The notes beneath the pieces are model-generated. The model searched no databases. It had not been told where the DNA came from and worked only from the letters and a program-made list of their open reading frames with translations. Below, piece by piece: positions 1-61,230 of a stretch of 64,000 nucleotides of DNA. Within the stretch, counting starts at the first letter, position 1. Each line of letters opens with the position of its first letter. The translations under genes and the position numbers were made by a program. This stretch comes from Tupaia tana (Eukaryota; Chordata; Mammalia; Scandentia; Tupaiidae): positions 13,653,149 through 13,717,148 of the forward strand of contig JAKSZU010000031.1 in NCBI GenBank assembly GCA_026018925.1, read 5' to 3'.

Positions 1-1622
1 GAGAGGAGGAAGGAGCCTCCCCCGGGAGCTGGGAGAGGAGAAAGGAGCCTCCCCCGGGAGCTGGGAGAGGAGGAAGGAGCCTCCCCCTGGGAGCTGGGAG
101 AGGAGGAAGGAGCCTCCCCCGGGAGCTGGGAGAGGAGGAAGGAGCCTGCCCCTGGGCCCCTGGGAGCTGGGAGAGGAGGAAGGAGCCTCCCCCGGGAGCT
201 GGGAGACGAGGAAGGAGCCTCCCCTGGGAGCTGGGAGAGGAGGAAGGAGCCTCCCCTGGGCCCCGGGAGCTGGGAGAGGAGGAAGGAGCCTCCCCCGGGA
301 GCTGGGAGAGGAGGAAGGAGCCTCCCCCGGGAGCTGGGAGAGGAGGAAGGAGCCTCCCCCGGGAGCTGGGAGAGGAGGAAGGAGCCTCCCCCGGGAGCTG
401 GGAGAGGAGGAAGGAGCCTCCCCCGGGAGCTGGGAGAGGAGGAAGGAGCCTCCCCCGGGAGCTGGGAGAGGAGGAAGGAGCCTCCCCCGGGAGCTGGGAG
501 AGGAGGAAGGAGCCTGCCCCTGGGCCCCTGGGAGCTGGGAGAGGAGGAAGGAGCCTCCCCTGGGGCCCTGGGAGCTGGGAGAGGAGGAAGGAGCCTCCCC
601 CTGGGAGCTGGGAGAGGAGGAAGGAGCCTCCCCCGGGAGCTGGGAGAGGAGGAAGGAGCCTCCCCTGGGGCCCTGGGAGCTGGGAGAGGAGGAAGGAGCC
701 TCCCCTGGGAGCTGGGAGAGGAGGAAGGAGCCTCCCCCGGGAGCTGGGAGAGGAGGAAGGAGCCTCCCCCGGGAGCTGGGAGAGGAGGAAGGAGCCTCCC
801 CCGGGAGCTGGGAGAGGAGGAAGGAGCCTCCCCCGGGAGCTGGGAGAGGAGGAAGGAGCCTCCCCCGGGAGCTGGGAGAGGAGGAAGGAGCCTCCCCCGG
901 GAGCTGGGAGAGGAGGAAGGAGCCTCCCCCGGGAGCTGGGAGAGGAGGAAGGAGCCTCCCCCGGGAGCTGGGAGAGGAGGAAGGAGCCTGCCCCTGGGCC
1001 CCTGGGAGCTGGGAGAGGAGGAAGGAGCCTCCCCTGGGGCCCTGGAGCTGGGAGAGGAGGAAGGAGCCTCCCCTGGGAGCTGGGAGAGGAGGAAGGAGCT
1101 CCCCTGGGGCCCTGGGAGCTGGGAGAGGAGGAAGGAGCCTCCCCTGGGGCCCTGGGAGCTGGGAGAGGAGGAAGGAGCCTCCCCTGGGGTCCCGGGAGCT
1201 GGGAGAGGAGGAAGGAGCCTCCCCTGGGAGCTGGGAGAGGAGGAAGGAGCCTCCCCCGGGAGCTGGGAGAGGAGGAAGGAGCCTCCCCTGGGAGCTGGGA
1301 GAGGAGGAAGGAGCCTCCCCTGGGGCCCTGGGAGCTGGGAGAGGAGGAAGGAGCCTCCCCTGGGGCCCTGGGAGCTGGGAGAGGAGGAAGGAGCCTCCCC
1401 TGGGGTCCCGGGAGCTGGGAGAGGAGGAAGGAGCCTCCCCTGGGAGCTGGGAGAGGAGGAAGGAGCCTCCCCCGGGAGCTGGGAGAGGAGGAAGGAGCCT
1501 CCCCCGGGAGCTGGGAGAGGAGGAAGGAGCCTGCCCCTGGGCCCCTGGGAGCTGGGAGAGGAGGAAGGAGCCTCCCCTGGGGCCCTGGGAGCTGGGAGAG
1601 GAGGAAGGAGCCTCCCCTGAGG
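1..1622 (+). repeat. 32-bp minisatellite inside a MaLR-like LTR (locus 1)
   Basis: About 48 tandem copies of a roughly 32-bp unit built from 'gggagctgggagaggagg', 'aaggagcctcccc' and a variable C/T run. Some units carry an extra 'tggggccct' and are 39-40 bp long. The array runs off the left edge of the window. The same unit recurs at 53517-54673 and 60823-61070. It resembles a single stretch of a MaLR-type LTR in which an 'agctggaagaggcaaggaag' type segment precedes 'ctcccctagagcctcc', so the array probably grew from that LTR segment. Confidence 0.9.
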
Positions 1623-1770
1623 CCTCTGGAGGAAGCAGGGCCCTGCCTCACCTGGACCTCAGATTTCTGGGCTCTAGGGCTGGGGGAGGACAAATACCTG
1701 TTGCTGAAAGCACTGGCCTGTGGTACATGCGTGTGACAGCCACAAAGCACTGTTTACGAGAGTGTAGAGA
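1623..1770 (+). mobile_element. 3' remnant of a MaLR-like LTR flanking minisatellite locus 1
   Basis: Directly after the array come 'cagggccctgcc', 'gacctcagatttctggg', 'acaaatacctgttgctgaa' and 'gtgacagccac', in the order expected for the 3' part of an MLT1-type ERVL-MaLR LTR. The segment after locus 3 (61071-61190) shows the same order. No retroviral coding sequence is present. The family name is from memory of the LTR consensus. Confidence 0.6.
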
Positions 1771-4209: not shown

Positions 4210-5215
4210 CCACAGACGGGGAGAGGCGGGGGATGGAGGTGACAGTGCACAGTCTAGGGTGGTGACCTCACCTCTGCACCTCCCTAGCAGGGGGGAGGTG
4301 GGGACTGAGGTGACAGTGCACAGTCTAGGGTGGTGACCTCACCTCTGCACTCCATAGCAGGGGGGAGGTGGGGACTGAGGTGACAGTGCACAGTCTAGGG
4401 TGGTGACCTCACCTCTGCACTCCATAGCAGGGGGGAGGTGGGGACTGAGGTGACAGTGCACAGTCTAGGGTGGTGACCTCACCTCTGCCCCTCCATAGCA
4501 GGGGGGGAGGTGGGGACTGAGGTGACAGTGCACAGTCTAGGGTGGTGACCTCACCTCTGCCCCTCCATAGCAGGGGGGAGGTGCGGACTGAGGTGACAGT
4601 GCACAGTCTAGGGTGGTGACCTCACCTCTGCACTCCATAGCAGGGGGGAGGTGGGGACTGAGGTGACAGTGCACAGTCTAGGGTGGTGACCTCACCTCTG
4701 CACTCCATAGCAGGGGGGAGGTGGGGACTGAGGTGACAGTGCACAGTCTAGGGTGGTGACCTCACCTCTGCACTCCATAGCAGGGGGGAGGTGGGGGACT
4801 GAGGTGACAGTGCACAGTCTAGGGTGGTGACCTCACCTCTGCCCCTCCATAGCAGGGGGGAGGTGGGGACTGAGGTGACAGTGCACAGTCTAGGGTGGTG
4901 ACCTCACCTCTGCCCCTCCATAGCAGGGGGGAGGTGCGGACTGAGGTGACAGTGCACAGTCTAGGGTGGTGACCTCACCTCTGCCCCTCCATAGCAGGGG
5001 GGAGGTGGGGACTGAGGTGACAGTGCACAGTCTAGGGTGGTGACCTCACCTCTGCCCCTCCATAGCAGGGGGGAGGTGGGGACTGAGGTGACAGTGCACA
5101 GTCTAGGGTGGTGACCTCACCTCTGCACTCCATAGCAGGGGGGAGGTGGGGACTGAGGTGACAGTGCACAGTCTAGGGTGGTGACCTCACCTCTGCCCCT
5201 CCATAGCAGGAGGTG
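4210..5215 (+). repeat. 70-72-bp minisatellite, 14 copies
   Basis: The motif 'gacagtgcacagtctaggg' recurs 14 times, at 4241, 4312, 4382 and so on to 5160, spaced 70-72 bp. Each unit also has 'ggtgacctcacctctgc' and 'ccatagcaggggggaggtg'. Units differ mainly at 'gcac' versus 'gcccc' before 'tccatag'. High identity suggests recent homogenisation. Confidence 0.95.
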
Positions 5216-13350: not shown

Positions 13351-13939
13351 ATACATGAAATGTCACAGGAAAGCGGGTTACGTGGGCTTAGAGTCAGTGC
13401 CCGAAGACTGACTGGTATACTCAGAACGTCACCGTCTGTGACCCCGTGAGAGGGCTGTCCCCACCAGGGCTACCATGGGGTACAATTTTGTCCAGGACAC
13501 ATCCCGAGAACACAAGGCACCAGCGCGTGGCCACCGGTGCCCGGGCCCTGGTCAGTCCTGGGAGCTGAGCGGTCACAGATAAACCAGCAGGGACAGCAGG
13601 GTTTGGGACCAACCTTCTGCTCTGCACACCAGGCCAGCGGGCGACGCCCACGGTAAGATGTCACATCGTCCAAGCGCACCGTCAGGGAGTCGGAGAGGCT
13701 CCAAAGTCCACCCCATTCTTATTCTGAAGGAGAAGTCTAATAGAGGTGGGGTGGCAGGAGACCCGCGGCAGGCGTGCCTAAACTGTGGTACGGGGAGGAG
13801 ACCTGGGGGCAAGGGGTCCCCTTAGTACATCATAAGCAGAGCTGGGAGACAGGACATTTGAAGGAGAAATGGATTGGGGTGGAAAGGAAAACTGTGTCCA
13901 CAGTCTACACAGCAATGTGGATTCTGACTCTATAGCTTG
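13351..13939. other. Single-copy stretch
   Basis: No recognisable gene or repeat between the SINE and the 43-bp minisatellite. Confidence 0.4.
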
Positions 13940-14716
13940 AGACCCAGGAGGGCGACGTGTGAGCTCCTGTCTGAGGACCCGAGACCAGGAGGGCGATGGT
14001 GTGAGCTCCAGGATGAGGACCCGAGACCAGGAGGGCGGTGCTGTGAGCTCCAGGATGAGGACCTGAGACCCAGGAGGGTGACGGTGTGAGCTCCAGGATG
14101 AGGACCCGAGACCCAGGAGGGCGGTGCTGTGAGCTCCTGTCTGAGGACCCGAGACCAGGAGGGCGACGGTGTGAGCTCCAGGATGAGGACCTGAGACCCA
14201 GGAGGGCGACGGTGTGAGCTCCAGGATGAGGACCTGAGACCAGGAGGGCGATGGTGTGAGGTCCAGGATGAGGACCCGAGACCAGGAGGGCGACGGTGTG
14301 AGCTCCTGTCTGAGGACCCGAGACCAGGAGGGCAATGGTGTGAGCTCCAGGATGAGGACCCGAGACCAGGAGGGCGATGGTGTGAGCTCCAGGATGAGGA
14401 CCTGAGACCAGGAGGGCGACGGTGTGAGCTCCAGGATGAGGACCCGAGACCAGGAGGGCGATGGTGTGAGCTCCAGGATGAGGACCCGAGACCCAGGAGG
14501 GCGATGGTGTGAGCTCCTGTCTGAGGACCCGAGACCAGGAGGGCGACGGTGTGAGCTCCAGGATGAGGACTCGAGACCCAGGAGGGCGACGGTGTGAGCT
14601 CCAGGATGAGGACCCGAGACCCAGGAGGGCGATGGTGTGAGCTCCAGGATGAGGACCCGAGACCCAGGAGGGCGACGGTGTGAGCTCCAGGATGAGGACC
14701 CGAGACCCAGGAGGGC
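13940..14716 (+). repeat. 42-43-bp minisatellite, about 18 copies
   Basis: Units combine 'caggagggcgatggtgtgag' with either 'ctccaggatgaggacc' or, in four units, 'ctcctgtctgaggacc'. The second type recurs every four to five units (near 13966, 14128, 14303 and 14514), a sign of multi-unit duplication. The 291- and 266-residue minus-strand frames are repeat translations. Confidence 0.95.
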
Positions 14717-22470: not shown

Positions 22471-23777
22471 TGGGAGGGTCCCCCGGGTAGACCGGGTGCC
22501 GAGTCGGTGGGGAGGGTCCCCGGGTAGACCAGGTGCCGAGTCGGTGGGGAGGGTCCCCGAGTAGACCGGGTGCCGAGTTCAGTGGGGAGTGTCCCCGGGT
22601 AGACCGGGTGCCGAGTCGGTGGGGAGTGTCCCCGGGTAGACCGGGTGCCGAGTCAGTGGGGAGGGTCCCCGGGTAGACCGGGTGCCGAGTCGGTGGGGAG
22701 GGTCCCCGGGTAGACCAGGTGCCGAGTCGGTGGGGAGGGTCCCCGAGTAGACCGGGTGCCGAGTTCAGTGGGGAGTGTCCCCGGGTAGACCGGGTGCCGA
22801 GTCGGTGGGGAGTGTCCCCGGGTAGACCGGGTGCCGAGTCAGTGGGGAGTGTCCCCGGGTAGACCGGGTGCCGAGTCAGTGGGGAGGGTCCCCCGGGTAG
22901 ACCGGGTGCCGAGGTCGGTGGGGAGGGTCCCCCGGGTAGACCGGGTGCAGAGTCAGTGGGGAGGGTCCCCGGGTAGACCGGGTGCCGAGTCAGTGGGGAG
23001 GGTCCCCGGGTAGACCGGGTGCCGAGTCAGTGGGGAGGGTCCCCGGGTAGACCGGGTGCCGAGTCAGTGGGGAGGGTCCCCGGGTAGACCGGGTGCCGAG
23101 TCAGTGGGGAGGGTCCCCGGGTAGACCGGGTGCCGAGTCAGTGGGGAGGGTCCCCCGGGTAGACCGGGTGCCCAGGTCGGTGGGGAGGGTCCCCGGGTAG
23201 ACGGGGTGCCGAGGTCGGTGGGGAGGGTCCCCCGGGTAGACCGGGTGCAGAGTCAGTGGGGAGGGTCCCCGGGTAGACCGGGTGCCGAGTCAGTGGGGAG
23301 GGTCCCCCGGGTAGACCGGGTGCCGAGTCAGTGGGGAGGGTCCCCGGGTAGACCGGGTGCCGAGTCAGTGGGGAGGGTCCCCGGGTAGACCGGGTGCCGA
23401 GTCAGTGGGGAGGGTCCCCGGGTAGACCGGGTGCCAAGGTCGGTGCGGAGGGTCCCCCGGGTAGACCGGGTGCCGAGTCGGTGGGGAGGGTCCCCGGGTA
23501 GACCGGGTGCCGAGTCGGTGGGGAGGGTCCCCGGGTAGACCGGGTGCCGAGTCAGTGGGGAGTGTCCCCGGGTAGACCGGGTGCCCAGGTCGGTGCGGAG
23601 GGTCCCCGGGTAGACCGGGTGCCGAGGTCGGTGCGGAGGGTCCCCGGGTAGACCGGGTGCCGAGTCAGTGGGGAGGGTCCCCCCGGGTAGACCGGGTGCC
23701 CAGGTCGGTGGGGACGGTCCCCGGGTAGACCAGGTGCCCAGGTCGGTGGGGAGGGTCCCCCGGGTAGACCGGGTGCG
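22471..23777 (+). repeat. 37-39-bp minisatellite with higher-order structure, ~34 copies
   Basis: Units combine 'gggtagaccgggtgccgag', 'tcagtggggagggtcccc' and single-base variants ('gaccagg', 'gtgcag', 'gtgccc', 'gagtgtcc', 'gaggtcgg'). The variant order around 22528-22660 recurs 186 bp later at 22714 (five units). A second block around 22907 recurs about 300 bp later near 23206 (eight units). Confidence 0.95.
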
Positions 23778-47824: not shown

Positions 47825-48935
47825 GACACCGCCGTCCTCCCCGACGCCGCCATCGCTGACACCGCCATCCTCCCCAACGCCGCCGTCCTCCCCAACATCA
47901 CCATCGCTGACACCGCCATCCCATCCAACACCGCCGTCCTCCCCAACACCACCATCTCCCCCAACACCGCCATCCTCCCCGACACCACCATCCTCCCCAA
48001 CCCCGCCATCACTGACACCACCATCCTCCCCAACACTGCCATCCTCCCCAACACTGCCATCCTCCCCGACACCACCATCCTCCCCAACACCACCATCACT
48101 GACACCACCATCCTCCCCAACACTGCCATCCTCCCCAACACCACTGTCCTCCCCAACACCACCATCCTCCCCAACACTGCCATCCTCCCCAACACCGCCA
48201 TCCTCCCCGACACCACCATCCTCCCTGACACCACCGTCCTCCCCAACCCTGCCGTCCTCCCCAACACCACCATCCTCCCCAACACCGCCATCACTGACAC
48301 CGCCGTCCTCCCCGACCCCGCCATCACTGACACTGCCATCCTGTCCAACATCATCATCCTCCCCAACACCACCATCCTATCCAACCCCGCCGTTCTCCCC
48401 AACCCCGCCATCACTGACACCGCCATCCTGTCCAACACCACCGTCCTCCCCAACACCGCCATCCTCCCAAACACCGCCATCCTCCCGAACACCGCCGTCC
48501 TCCCCAACACCGCCGTCCTCCCAAACACCGCCATCCTCCCGAACACCGCCATCCTCCTGAACACCGCCGTCCTCCCCAACACCGCCGTCCTCCCTGACCC
48601 CGCCATCCTGTCCAACACCACCATCCTCCCCAACACCGCCATCCTCCCAAACACCGCCATCCTCCCGAACACCGCCATCCTCCTGAACACCGCCGTCCTC
48701 CCCAACACCGCCATCCTCCCCAACACCGCCATCGGTGACAGTGCCATCCTCCCCAACACCGCCGTCCTCTCCAATCCCACTGTCTTCCCCAAACCACTGT
48801 CCTCTCCAATACTACCGTCCTCTCCTCTCCAACACCACTGTCCTGTCCAACGCCACCTTCCTGTTCAATACCTCCTTGTCTCCCACCGTGCTGTCCTGTC
48901 CACACTGCCGTCCTCTCCAACACTGCCGTCTGTGA
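47825..48935 (+). repeat. 18-bp minisatellite, about 60 copies
   Basis: Units are variants of 'ccccaacaccgccatcct' (18 bp), with 'gacacc', 'actgac' and 'gtcctc' versions. A run of units beginning 'gccatcctgtccaac' at 48422 recurs exactly 180 bp later at 48602, a ten-unit duplication. Units decay after about 48780. Because 18 is a multiple of 3, no frame shift arises and frames stay open on both strands. Confidence 0.96.
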
Positions 48936-53149: not shown

Positions 53150-53516
53150 CATCACCGCTGTCCCCAGGCAGCTGTTCTGACACCTCAACGTCACGTCTAG
53201 TGCTTCCCGGAGGCCAAACTGGAGCCCCTGTCCCTACTCAACGCTCAGCGTGGAGTCCTGACGCCACCGGATCTCGGAACGGGCCTCATGTAGACAGAGG
53301 GTCTGTGCAGACACTGTGAGTGAAGGTGACGTTGTACAGGACTTGAGAGACAGAGAGGAGGCACAGACAGAGGAGGAGCCACGTGGGGACCTAACTGCAG
53401 TGACCGGGGTCCCTGTGAGAGAGCAGAGAGGAGGCACAGACAGAGGAGGAGCCACGTGAGACGGAGGCAGAGACGGGAGTGACGGGTCCACAAGCCAAGG
53501 GACGCCTGGGGCCTCC
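53150..53516 (+). mobile_element. MaLR-like LTR, 5' part (locus 2)
   Basis: 'gaggaggcacagacagagg', 'gaggagccacgtgagacgg', 'ggcagagacgggagtgacgg' and 'ccacaagccaagggacgcc' match an MLT1-type ERVL-MaLR LTR and the flank of locus 3. A 73-bp tandem duplication within it repeats 'gaggaggcacagacagagg' at 53355 and 53428. No retroviral gene is present. Confidence 0.65.
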
Positions 53517-54673
53517 CCCTGGGAGAGGAGGAAAGCTTCCCCCTGGGAAGAGGAGGAAGGAGCCTCCCCTGGGGCCCCGGGAGCTGGGAGAGGTGGGAGA
53601 GGAGGAAGGAGCCTCCCCTCCCCCGGGGCCCTGGGAGCTGGGAGAGGAGGAAGGAGCCTCCCCTGGGGCCCCGGGAGCTGGGAGAGGAGGAAGGAGCCTC
53701 CCCGGGAGCTGGGAGAGGAGGAAGGAGCCTCCCCCGGGAGCTGGGAGAGGAGGAAGGAGCCTCCCCTGGGAGCTGGGAGAGGAGGAAGGAGCCTCCCCAG
53801 GGAGCTGGGCGAGGAGGAAGGAGCCTCCCCCCGGGAGCTGGGAGAGGAGGAAGGAGCCTCCCCTGGGGCCCTGGGAGCCCTCCCCCGGGAGCTGGGAGAG
53901 GAGGAAGGAGCCTCCCCCGGGAGCTGGGAGAGGAGGAAGGAGCCTCCCCTGGGCCCTGGGAGCTGGGAGAGGAGGAAGGAGCCTCCCCCGGGAGCTGGGA
54001 GAGGAGGAAGGAGCCTCCCCCGGGAGCTGGGAGAGGAGGAAGGAGCTCCCCCGGGAGCTGGGAGAGGAGGAAGGAGCCTCCCCCGGGAGCTGGGAGAGGA
54101 GGAAGGAGCCTCCCCCGGGAGCTGGGAGCGGAGGAAGGAGCCTCCCCCGGGAGCTGGGAGAGGAGGAAGGAGCCTCCCCCGGGAGCTGGGAGAGGAGGAA
54201 GGAGCCTTCCCTGGGGCCCTGGGAGCTGGGAGAGGAGGAAGGAGCCTCCCCCGGGAGCTGGGAGAGGAGGAAGGAGCCTCCCCCCTGGGAGCTGGGAGAG
54301 GAGGAAGGAGCCTGGGAGAGGAGGAAGGAGCCTCCCCGGGAGCTGGGAGAGGAGGAAGGAGCCTCCCCCGGGAGCTGGGAGAGGAGGAAGGAGCCTCCCC
54401 CGGGAGCCCTGGGAGAGGAGGAAGGAGCCTCCCCTGGGAGCTGGGAGAGGAGGAAGGAGCCTCCCCCGGGAGCTGGGAGAGGAGGAAGGAGCCTCCCCCC
54501 TGGGAGAGGAGGGGAGCTGGGAGGGAGAGGAGGAAGGAGCCTGGGAGAGGAGGAAGGAGCCTCCCCTGGGAGCTGGGAGAGGAGGAAGGAGCCTCCCCCC
54601 CTGGGAGCTGGGAGAGGAGGAAGGAGCCTCCCCCGGGAGCTGGGAGAGGAGGAAGGAGCCTCCCCTGGGAGCT
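53517..54673 (+). repeat. 32-bp minisatellite inside a MaLR-like LTR (locus 2)
   Basis: About 34 copies of the same unit as locus 1 ('gggagctgggagaggagg' plus 'aaggagcctcccc'), with length variants. Long frames of PGxWERRKEPP type (plus) and SFLLSQLPG type (minus) are repeat translations. LTR-like sequence lies on its 5' side; the 3' LTR part is poorly preserved. Confidence 0.95.
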
Positions 54674-54897
54674 GAAGGGCGTGTTACTGGCCGGGGGCGT
54701 CCTTCCTGACACCATGGGCACGGCCTCGCTCACGCACAGGCGGGCTGGGGCAGGACACGACTGACACGGCCTAAAATACCATGACGGTCATGTGGGAATC
54801 GCGGTCCACCCTGGGGACGCCAGACATGTGCGGGGCCCACGGCCCACAGGCAGGGCGAGACCCGACGCGTGACGTTCCCATTGCTGCTCCTTGCCGC

Positions 54898-56780: not shown

Positions 56781-57170
56781 TGAAAATAATAATATTAAAT
56801 ATGATAAAGTTAAATACAACCATTCTTTTTTAACACATCACAAACAAAGTGAAATAAAATCATTCTCTAAAAATGTTTGGAAAGAGAAAGAGAAGGAAAG
56901 GGACAGGGACCCTGGCTGGTGTCTCTGTGGACTCCTCTGTGGACTCGGACAGCCATGGGAGACGGCCACATGGAGACAGAGACCACACGCAGCGGGGGCT
57001 CCCGGTGGCCGGCCGTGCCAGTGCCACGTCTCGGGCCTCCGTCCGGCTCCCCAGGATGAGGACGGCTCGAAGTGCAGGAGGAAGACAGGAAGTGTCCGGA
57101 TGGAGGTGAGGCTCCCGTGTCCTATCAGGGCATCGGGAAACTCACGACGGCTTTTTCTGTGTCTCAATAC
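56781..57170. other. Single-copy stretch, A/T-rich then GC-rich
   Basis: The first 90 bp may be SINE tail material. Nothing else recognised. Confidence 0.35.
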
Positions 57171-57326
57171 AAAGAGGGGTCGTGGCAGGACCACAGAGGG
57201 GGGTCGTGGCAGGACCACAGAGAGGGGTCGTGGCAGGACCACAGAGAGGGGTCGTGGCAGGACCACAGAGAAAGATCATGGAAGGACCACAGAGCGGGGT
57301 TGTGGCTGGACCACAGAGAGGGGTCA
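57171..57326 (+). repeat. 24-bp minisatellite, 6-7 copies
   Basis: Units of 'ggggtcgtggcaggaccac' plus 'agaga' repeat from 57175, diverging in the last two copies. Confidence 0.92.
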
Positions 57327-60120: not shown

Positions 60121-60620
60121 GAGAACCCTAGCGGACCGGGCAGACACGCCTTAGGACGCGGCTCCTCCGCATGGCTGCTCCTGAACCCCTCCTTAGCCAG
60201 AAACGGCACTGGCAGCGTGCGCTGGGAGGACGCCTCCCCGGCTGAGGCCGCCAGAGTCCCTGCCGCCCACTCCTCTGGGAGGCTCGGTACCAGGCAGACG
60301 AGCCCCGGACACGCCCTGCCCCTCAGGGTAGGGGTAGGAGAAAAGGATCAAACCTGCATTTCGCGTGACCTCAACGTGCCCTTTCCCCAGCCTCATCTAA
60401 CACACCCTTCGGGGAGGGGGCCCCCTTGGGCGGTGATGGTGACATCCCTGTACCGGCACCGCCTGCCTGACACTCGCCACCTCGCCGGGAGGACGGGGGC
60501 TCCATCTCACACGCACACCACCACGAACCAGGGGGTGGGGACCCGGACACGGGGTGACTGCACACATCCGTCCTCCAAGCTCCCCACACCTACATCCCTG
60601 CCCCTGCAGACGTGGCCTCA
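60121..60620. other. Single-copy GC-rich stretch
   Basis: Nothing recognised over about 500 bp. Confidence 0.4.
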
Positions 60621-60822
60621 CTTGCAAAACTAGAGACTTGGCAGATGGGATGAAGTGAAGAATCCGATCCTGAGACGGGCTCATCCTGGACTAGGGGGAC
60701 CTCAGTGCAGTGAGCAGGGTCCCCATGAGAGACCGAAGGGGAGACACAGACACGGAGGAGGAGCCACATGGAGACGGGGCAGAGACTGGAGGGACGCGGC
60801 CACAAGCCAAGGGACGCCTGGA
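60621..60822 (+). mobile_element. MaLR-like LTR, 5' part (locus 3)
   Basis: 'gatgggatgaagtgaagaatcc', 'gagacgggctcatcctgg', 'gggtccccatgagagacc', 'cagacacggaggaggagcc', 'gcggccacaagccaagggac' follow an MLT1-type ERVL-MaLR LTR in order and match locus 2. It leads directly into the minisatellite. No retroviral gene is present. Confidence 0.75.
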
Positions 60823-61070
60823 GCCCCTGGGAGAGGAGGAAGGAGGGGAGCTGGGAGAGGAGGAAGGAGCCTCCCCCCCCGGGAGCTGGGAGAGGAGGAA
60901 GGAGCCTCCCCTGGGAGCTGGGAGCTGGGAGAGGAGGAAGGAGCCTCCCCTGGGAGCTGAGAGAGGAGGAAGGAGCCTCCCCTGGGCCCTGGGAGCTGGG
61001 AGCTGGGAGAGGAGGAAGGAGCCTCCCCCCCCTGGGAGCTGGGAGAGGAGGAAGGAGCCTCCCTGGCCCT
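60823..61070 (+). repeat. 32-bp minisatellite inside a MaLR-like LTR (locus 3)
   Basis: About 7 copies of the unit seen at loci 1 and 2, with variants such as a doubled 'gggagctgggagctggg'. It is the shortest of the three arrays and the best preserved on both flanks, so it shows most clearly where in the LTR the array arose. Confidence 0.95.
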
Positions 61071-61230
61071 CAGGACGGAGCACGGCCCTGCCACCCCGGA
61101 GCTCAGACGGTGGGCTCCAGGGCTTGGAGCAGAGACATCTGTTGCTTAAAGCCCCTAGAGTGTGGCTGTTTCTCCCGGCATCCCCAGGCCCGCCCTGGAG
61201 TGTCCCCGTAGACACCGGGTGGGCTCCACT
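61071..61230 (+). mobile_element. MaLR-like LTR, 3' part (locus 3)
   Basis: 'gacggagcacggccctgcc', 'ggagctcagacggtgggc', 'ccagggcttggagcagag', 'catctgttgcttaaagcccc', 'gtgtggctgtttctcccgg' match the LTR 3' part and the flank after locus 1. Confidence 0.7.

Follow-up and report, generated by a model that had tools for sequence, protein, structure and literature searches.

Three minisatellite arrays in LTR copies of Tupaia tana look like members of a regional family

The arrays and the adjoining LTR pieces

Three tandem arrays of a 32-bp unit lie in the window, by which we mean the whole stretch of 64,000 nucleotides that was analysed (C442:13653149-13717148, on a contig of 14,120,996 bp). The arrays and the LTR pieces beside them are all given on the + strand. 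The window holds the 3' part of array A1 at 1..1617, array A2 at 53525..54674 and array A3 at 60833..61070, with 47, 34 and 7 cores when these stretches are cut at the core. The whole of A1 measures about 2.45 kb, of which about 0.8 kb lies ahead of the window, and has 72-74 cores, depending on which of two ways of cutting is used. In the output of Tandem Repeats Finder the 32-bp unit occupies 1-1617, 53669-54674 and 60846-60995; a row of 45-bp period (53544-53687) falls in A2, and rows of longer period extend A3 to 61070. Both procedures confirm that one unit makes up the three arrays, as the first-pass annotation had claimed; its size range of 7 to at least 48 units also holds and becomes 7 to about 74 once A1 is read beyond the window. 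Throughout the window arrays the letters of the unit core are nearly constant and length changes fall mostly at one junction, so that most units measure 31-36 or 39-41 bp.

Diverged copies of one old, retrovirus-like LTR, which we take to be MaLR-like, lie beside the arrays. The 5' piece beside A2 (53385..53509) aligns over about 127 bp with 60695-60821 in the 5' piece beside A3 (60604..60822), with a score of 151 against 37 for the best shuffle (n=300). Similarly, the 3' piece beside A1 (1628..1711) aligns over about 80 bp with the 3' piece beside A3 (61073..61152), scoring 58 against 33 (n=300). Each alignment beats 300 of 300 shuffles, which bears out the earlier claim of matching LTR sequence 3' of the first array and 5' of the second. 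At ungapped columns these flanks differ by 12.9% (A2/A3) and 21.2% (A1/A3), and the mean core distance between window arrays is 1.1-2.4% with four short units and each array's last unit excluded. Among 30 other loci, 10 have a 3' flank related to that of A3. For A2, the flank alignments of the window and of the locus set revealed no recognisable LTR sequence 3' of the array. Searching the window with profiles of the 5' and 3' pieces returned the three known places and no further LTR copy (all other matches had E values of at least 0.79).

Outside the aligned LTR pieces, the tested window flanks have just two things in common. One is a dispersed SINE-like repeat; the other, beside A1 and A2, is a match of 16 bp barely above shuffles (27 vs 26). 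The SINE-like repeat has dozens of matches, about 66-89% identical, across the whole window. The 5' flank of A2 also contains a direct duplication (53344-53385 and 53416-53458; 43 columns, 97.7% identity).

Other minisatellites are present in the window. Two of them, at 22472-23776 (37-bp unit) and 13939-14716 (42-bp unit), are single-locus genome-wide by exact pattern (13/13 and 6/6 matches). Further arrays are found at 4229-5210 (71-bp units), 47826-48774 (18-bp) and 57169-57325 (24-bp). Hairpin folding was considered as a driver of expansion of the 32-bp unit and rejected: eight sequences (two unit forms and two runs, on both strands) fold no better than shuffles, with z from -0.08 to +3.07.

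Distribution of the unit and the LTR

The source genome that was searched comprises 2.95 Gb. It contains 766 exact copies of a 27-mer taken from the unit, and among the matches listed 100 of 100 are on C442; 577 of the 766 fall in the fetched loci and the window, the other 189 having no individual placement. Two 39-mers representing the 40-bp unit forms have 45/45 and 39/39 exact matches on this contig, at 12.44-13.94 Mb. The same unit is thereby found at no fewer than 37 array places, of which 29 were read and 8 were located (near 12.445, 12.458, 12.561, 12.911, 13.178, 13.385, 13.388 and 13.602 Mb). They span about 2 Mb near one end of the contig, the outermost array read being at 11.93 Mb. 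The arrays read have 7-74 cores (median 19) and lie in both orientations, 16 one way and 13 the other, in otherwise unrelated surroundings; their 32-bp unit is accompanied by 39-41-bp variants. A locus with three units (L035) and a single-unit copy (L014) were read as well. Searches with the unit in viral and prokaryotic contig collections (viral_contigs and genome_contigs) gave no match. The idea that the minisatellite was born three times, in an LTR that expands in general, does not fit a unit with this many array places, all of which, where located, are on a single contig.

The 5' LTR piece beside A3, used as a genome query, has at least 42 matches: at least 32 on C442 (11.93-13.94 Mb) and at least 10 on seven other contigs. 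These counts are lower bounds, since 40 of 49 candidates were scored. Two of the C442 matches belong to one copy, which leaves 31 LTR places on this contig. Twenty-seven are expanded, three have a single unit (12244572, 12244995 and 13112709) and one is broken off before the segment (13235053). The copies at 13112709 and 12244572 have a single unit behind the same 5' flank, meaning that the unit corresponds to a segment inside the LTR. At one locus (L009, C442:12243942-12245076), 1.2 kb contain three related LTR pieces, of which one is expanded and the other two have a single unit. On other contigs, none of the 10 copies that were scored and read is expanded. A 20-mer of the segment, taken from the copy on contig C297, has 15 matches in 15 separate places on 9 contigs, none of them on C442, and even the closest two are at least about 200 kb apart. 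Hence, among these copies, expansion follows the region and not the LTR family, and the suggestion that the LTR is expansion-prone as such is not supported by the copies elsewhere. Counting units per LTR copy, as had been proposed, does reveal both single-unit and expanded copies; among the copies scored, the expanded ones are on C442 (27/31 vs 0/10) instead of being scattered. The 3' LTR piece beside A3, as a genome query, matched only itself.

Flanks beyond the LTR

Flanks were compared over 0.8-1.4 kb in 465 locus pairs. Homology running out from the array edge passes the LTR in a single pair, L028/L032 (C442:13306577 and 13288849), which is 95-97% identical on both sides, over 1372 bp 5' and 911 bp 3'; this pair is a local duplication. 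In no other pair is such homology longer than 239 bp 5' or 101 bp 3'. Some 5' homology exists in 430 of the 465 pairs, with a median of 108.5 bp, and some 3' homology in 56. The flank is related to at least three other loci in 31/31 cases on the 5' side and in 16/31 on the 3' side, counts that favour the 5' side because most loci were found through it. L009 and L014 have 69 bp of another 3' continuation in common.

Common DNA beyond the LTR had been named as a sign that the window loci are duplicates of one event. Nothing of this kind is found among the three in the flanks compared, apart from the dispersed SINE-like repeat and the marginal 16-bp match. The comparison of flanks supports the view that the window arrays are not segmental duplications of one another and that they lie inside copies of one LTR.

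A candidate pseudoautosomal region

Several gene-like matches suggest where this region belongs. The search of the genome for the Maf domain gave one match, at C442:13186791, which we take to be ASMTL-like, on the assumption that in mammals the Maf domain marks ASMTL. Sulfatase exons are grouped at 12.27-12.50 Mb, and more of them occur at 9.69 and 9.76 Mb. The CD99 family is matched by an exon at 12.69 Mb and at one other place, on C1197. Presumably, then, the markers are STS-like at 9.7, ARS-like at 12.27-12.50, CD99-like at 12.69 and ASMTL-like at 13.19 Mb. STS, ARS, CD99 and ASMTL follow one another in this order at the tip of the human X short arm. Since the marker order is the same, the arrays are probably in a pseudoautosomal region (PAR); marker order is what suggests that the array region is the pseudoautosomal tip of X. 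PF16360, sought for GTPBP6, has no match in the genome. The last 10 kb of the contig contain no telomere repeats and have 36% G+C.

Homogeneous units in divergent flanks

The core consensus at 25 columns is identical in 29 of 29 arrays, part of these columns being conditioned by the picking of arrays with a 16-base core (up to three mismatches). Units were called with at most two mismatches in 9 of the 25 columns; the consensus left out units under 28 bp and, in arrays with more than four usable units, the outer ones. Eleven columns past the junction, which were not used for picking, agree equally well among arrays. Mean distances are 0-9.5% within arrays and 3.7% between arrays (435 pairs, with the three-unit locus L035 included, whose units give a differing consensus). 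The 5' flanks are much less alike: identity is 85.1% among C442 copies (405 pairs), 77.9% among off-contig copies (45) and 79.1% in mixed pairs (290), both sets having been found with a C442 query. For the C442 set, L034 and L035 were dropped because of low scores and the L028/L032 pair was excluded, while L014 was kept.

If arrays had been apart for as long as their flanks, they should differ at several core columns, so their identity argues against independent births. At the flank rate, 25 sites without a difference would have a probability of 0.03 for A2/A3 and 0.003 for A1/A3. The two commonest unit types are found in 27 and 24 of the 29 arrays, yet 145 of 181 types are private, each to a single array, a pattern consistent with spread and later turnover within loci. 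The extent to which arrays share the rarer types shows no clear fall with distance (110 of 1000 permutations were as extreme), so they give no sign of short-range conversion. At the edges of some arrays, the outermost units are of other types than those inside. The unit lacks a C that stands in 6 of 10 off-contig copies; in A1, a C occupies this site in the outermost 5' unit but not in the inner ones.

Hypothesis

The three window arrays look like members of a regional family, formed by one repeat that spread between LTRs, and not like three births. Our preferred reading, to which we assign a probability of about 0.6, is that one LTR segment expanded in the region and that recombination copied it into other LTRs, giving a minisatellite family of many loci. 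The first expansion would have occurred, through misalignment, in an LTR copy whose short direct repeats were spaced by about 32 and 41 bp. Misalignment between short direct repeats has been proposed for some arrays derived from transposable elements, according to the portion of that report available to us (PMC3389668). Breaks in other LTRs of the region may then have been repaired from an array-bearing LTR, by ectopic gene conversion or one-sided copying, and such repair would carry the array into the recipients. Unequal exchange could afterwards have altered array sizes and produced the private variants. The single-unit copy L014 has repeats of a suitable kind: CCCTGG recurs 32 bp apart, CCTGGAGCC 41 bp apart and GGAGCC 29 bp apart, and the 32- and 41-bp spacings are close to the two unit lengths. 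L014 could, on the other hand, be a contracted array instead of a starting form. The other two single-unit copies on C442 have no direct repeats between 28 and 45 bp, and among the off-contig copies repeats of at least 6 bp are found at 32 bp in 0 of 10 and at 41 bp in 1 of 10. The greater likeness of C442 flanks (85.1%) than of off-contig flanks (77.9%) counts against our reading, because it means that the LTR copies may not be independent.

Other explanations deserve consideration. Each LTR copy of the region might have expanded alone, with the likeness of the units coming simply from common LTR sequence. The direct repeats of L014, the private status of most unit types (145/181) and the other window minisatellites, two of them single-locus, as though the region favoured expansion, would all agree with this. 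We nevertheless consider it unlikely, given that one core consensus in 29 of 29 arrays is hard to match with 5' flanks about 15% different, that the chances of seeing no core difference are as low as those given above for A2/A3 and A1/A3, and that some outermost units are unlike the inner types. We are about equally sceptical of another possibility, namely that an LTR piece and its array moved jointly into new, non-homologous sites of the region, the LTR copies being local copies of this cassette. It would account for the closer likeness of flanks on C442, for the 3' LTR piece being recognisable in only 16 of 31 loci and for the shortness of the common 5' sequence (see above). Flank divergence far exceeds unit divergence, however, and three C442 LTR places have a single unit.

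Segmental duplication of one expanded LTR is represented by L028/L032, with its 95-97% identity for 0.9-1.4 kb on both sides, but as a general explanation it is highly improbable when homology ends so close to the array in the other 464 of 465 pairs. The earlier alternative of one expanded LTR copied to several places was thus closer to the evidence as regards copying; copying as a large block is what the short flank homology speaks against, save in that one pair. Finally, the unit might be kept constant by its function, if it attracts meiotic break or axis proteins and selection or drive spreads it. A probably pseudoautosomal place and a near-invariant core beside a variable junction would suit such a function, and the mouse has a 31-bp PAR minisatellite that gathers proteins of the break machinery, as the accessible parts of two reports describe (PMC11039559, PMC10666023). 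Copying alone accounts for the constancy of the unit, though, and we regard functional constancy as very unlikely. Recombinational copying between LTRs remains our preferred reading.

Implications of the hypothesis

Minisatellites inside LTRs have precedents. In mouse, Ms6-hm and Hm-2 lie in MaLR LTRs (Kelly 1994, as cited in the available section of PMC9659126); the likeness is in a minisatellite expanded inside the LTR of a MaLR-type element, and the difference is that two loci are named in that section, against 29 arrays read and 8 located here, all of one unit and in one region. At 16q24.1 (FOXF1), a human minisatellite with a 33-bp unit and variable size is flanked by MLT1D ERVL-MaLR sequence, according to the text available (PMC4411736). 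Its unit is another one, it is described there for one human locus and some non-syntenic loci in other species, and that text, unlike what we see here, describes no regional family. The accessible part of a survey of human tandem repeats derived from transposable elements reports one repeat at several loci of one element, with no obvious genomic hotspot, in contrast to arrays located only in about 2 Mb of C442 (PMC3389668).

The other comparison is with mouse mo-2, which has a 31-bp unit in tandem arrays in the PAR (a location that for our arrays is inferred). The sections of the reports available to us place mo-2 also at the termini of chromosomes 4, 9 and 13 and give experimental evidence for its meiotic role; the arrays here were compared with it by description (PMC11039559, PMC10666023). 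Mouse mo-2 is reported to gather REC114, MEI4, ANKRD31 and IHO1 and to remodel the PAR axis. In human PAR1, many motif-rich double-strand break (DSB) peaks are minisatellite-like; as far as the available part of that study goes, they resemble our arrays as tandem repeats tied to recombination in a PAR, and differ in having periods of 4-101 bases and PRDM9 motifs and in not being one unit in many LTRs (PMC4102438). Similar roles to that of mo-2 have been raised for repeats or satellites in or near the PAR of human and apes, in the portions of two further papers at hand (PMC9575207, PMC11168930). By analogy, such a meiotic role is possible for the arrays described here. It is doubtful that they are a full counterpart of mo-2, that is, a PAR minisatellite drawn from an LTR that would mark the PAR for meiotic breaks and spread through the repair of naive LTRs.

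No regional family of one unit in LTR copies of a probable PAR was found in open-access titles and the openings of abstracts, a scope that takes in little of the subscription literature. LTR-born minisatellites and the mouse PAR minisatellite are already known; their combination appears new to the part of the open-access literature that was searched.

One unit in dozens of places, within different LTR copies wherever it was read, is a natural record of a repeat passing between dispersed elements. If the region is indeed one PAR, as is probable, the family shows how a PAR can gain a common repeat. The family also makes it possible to test whether transposable elements repeatedly give rise to mo-2-like PAR minisatellites in mammals.
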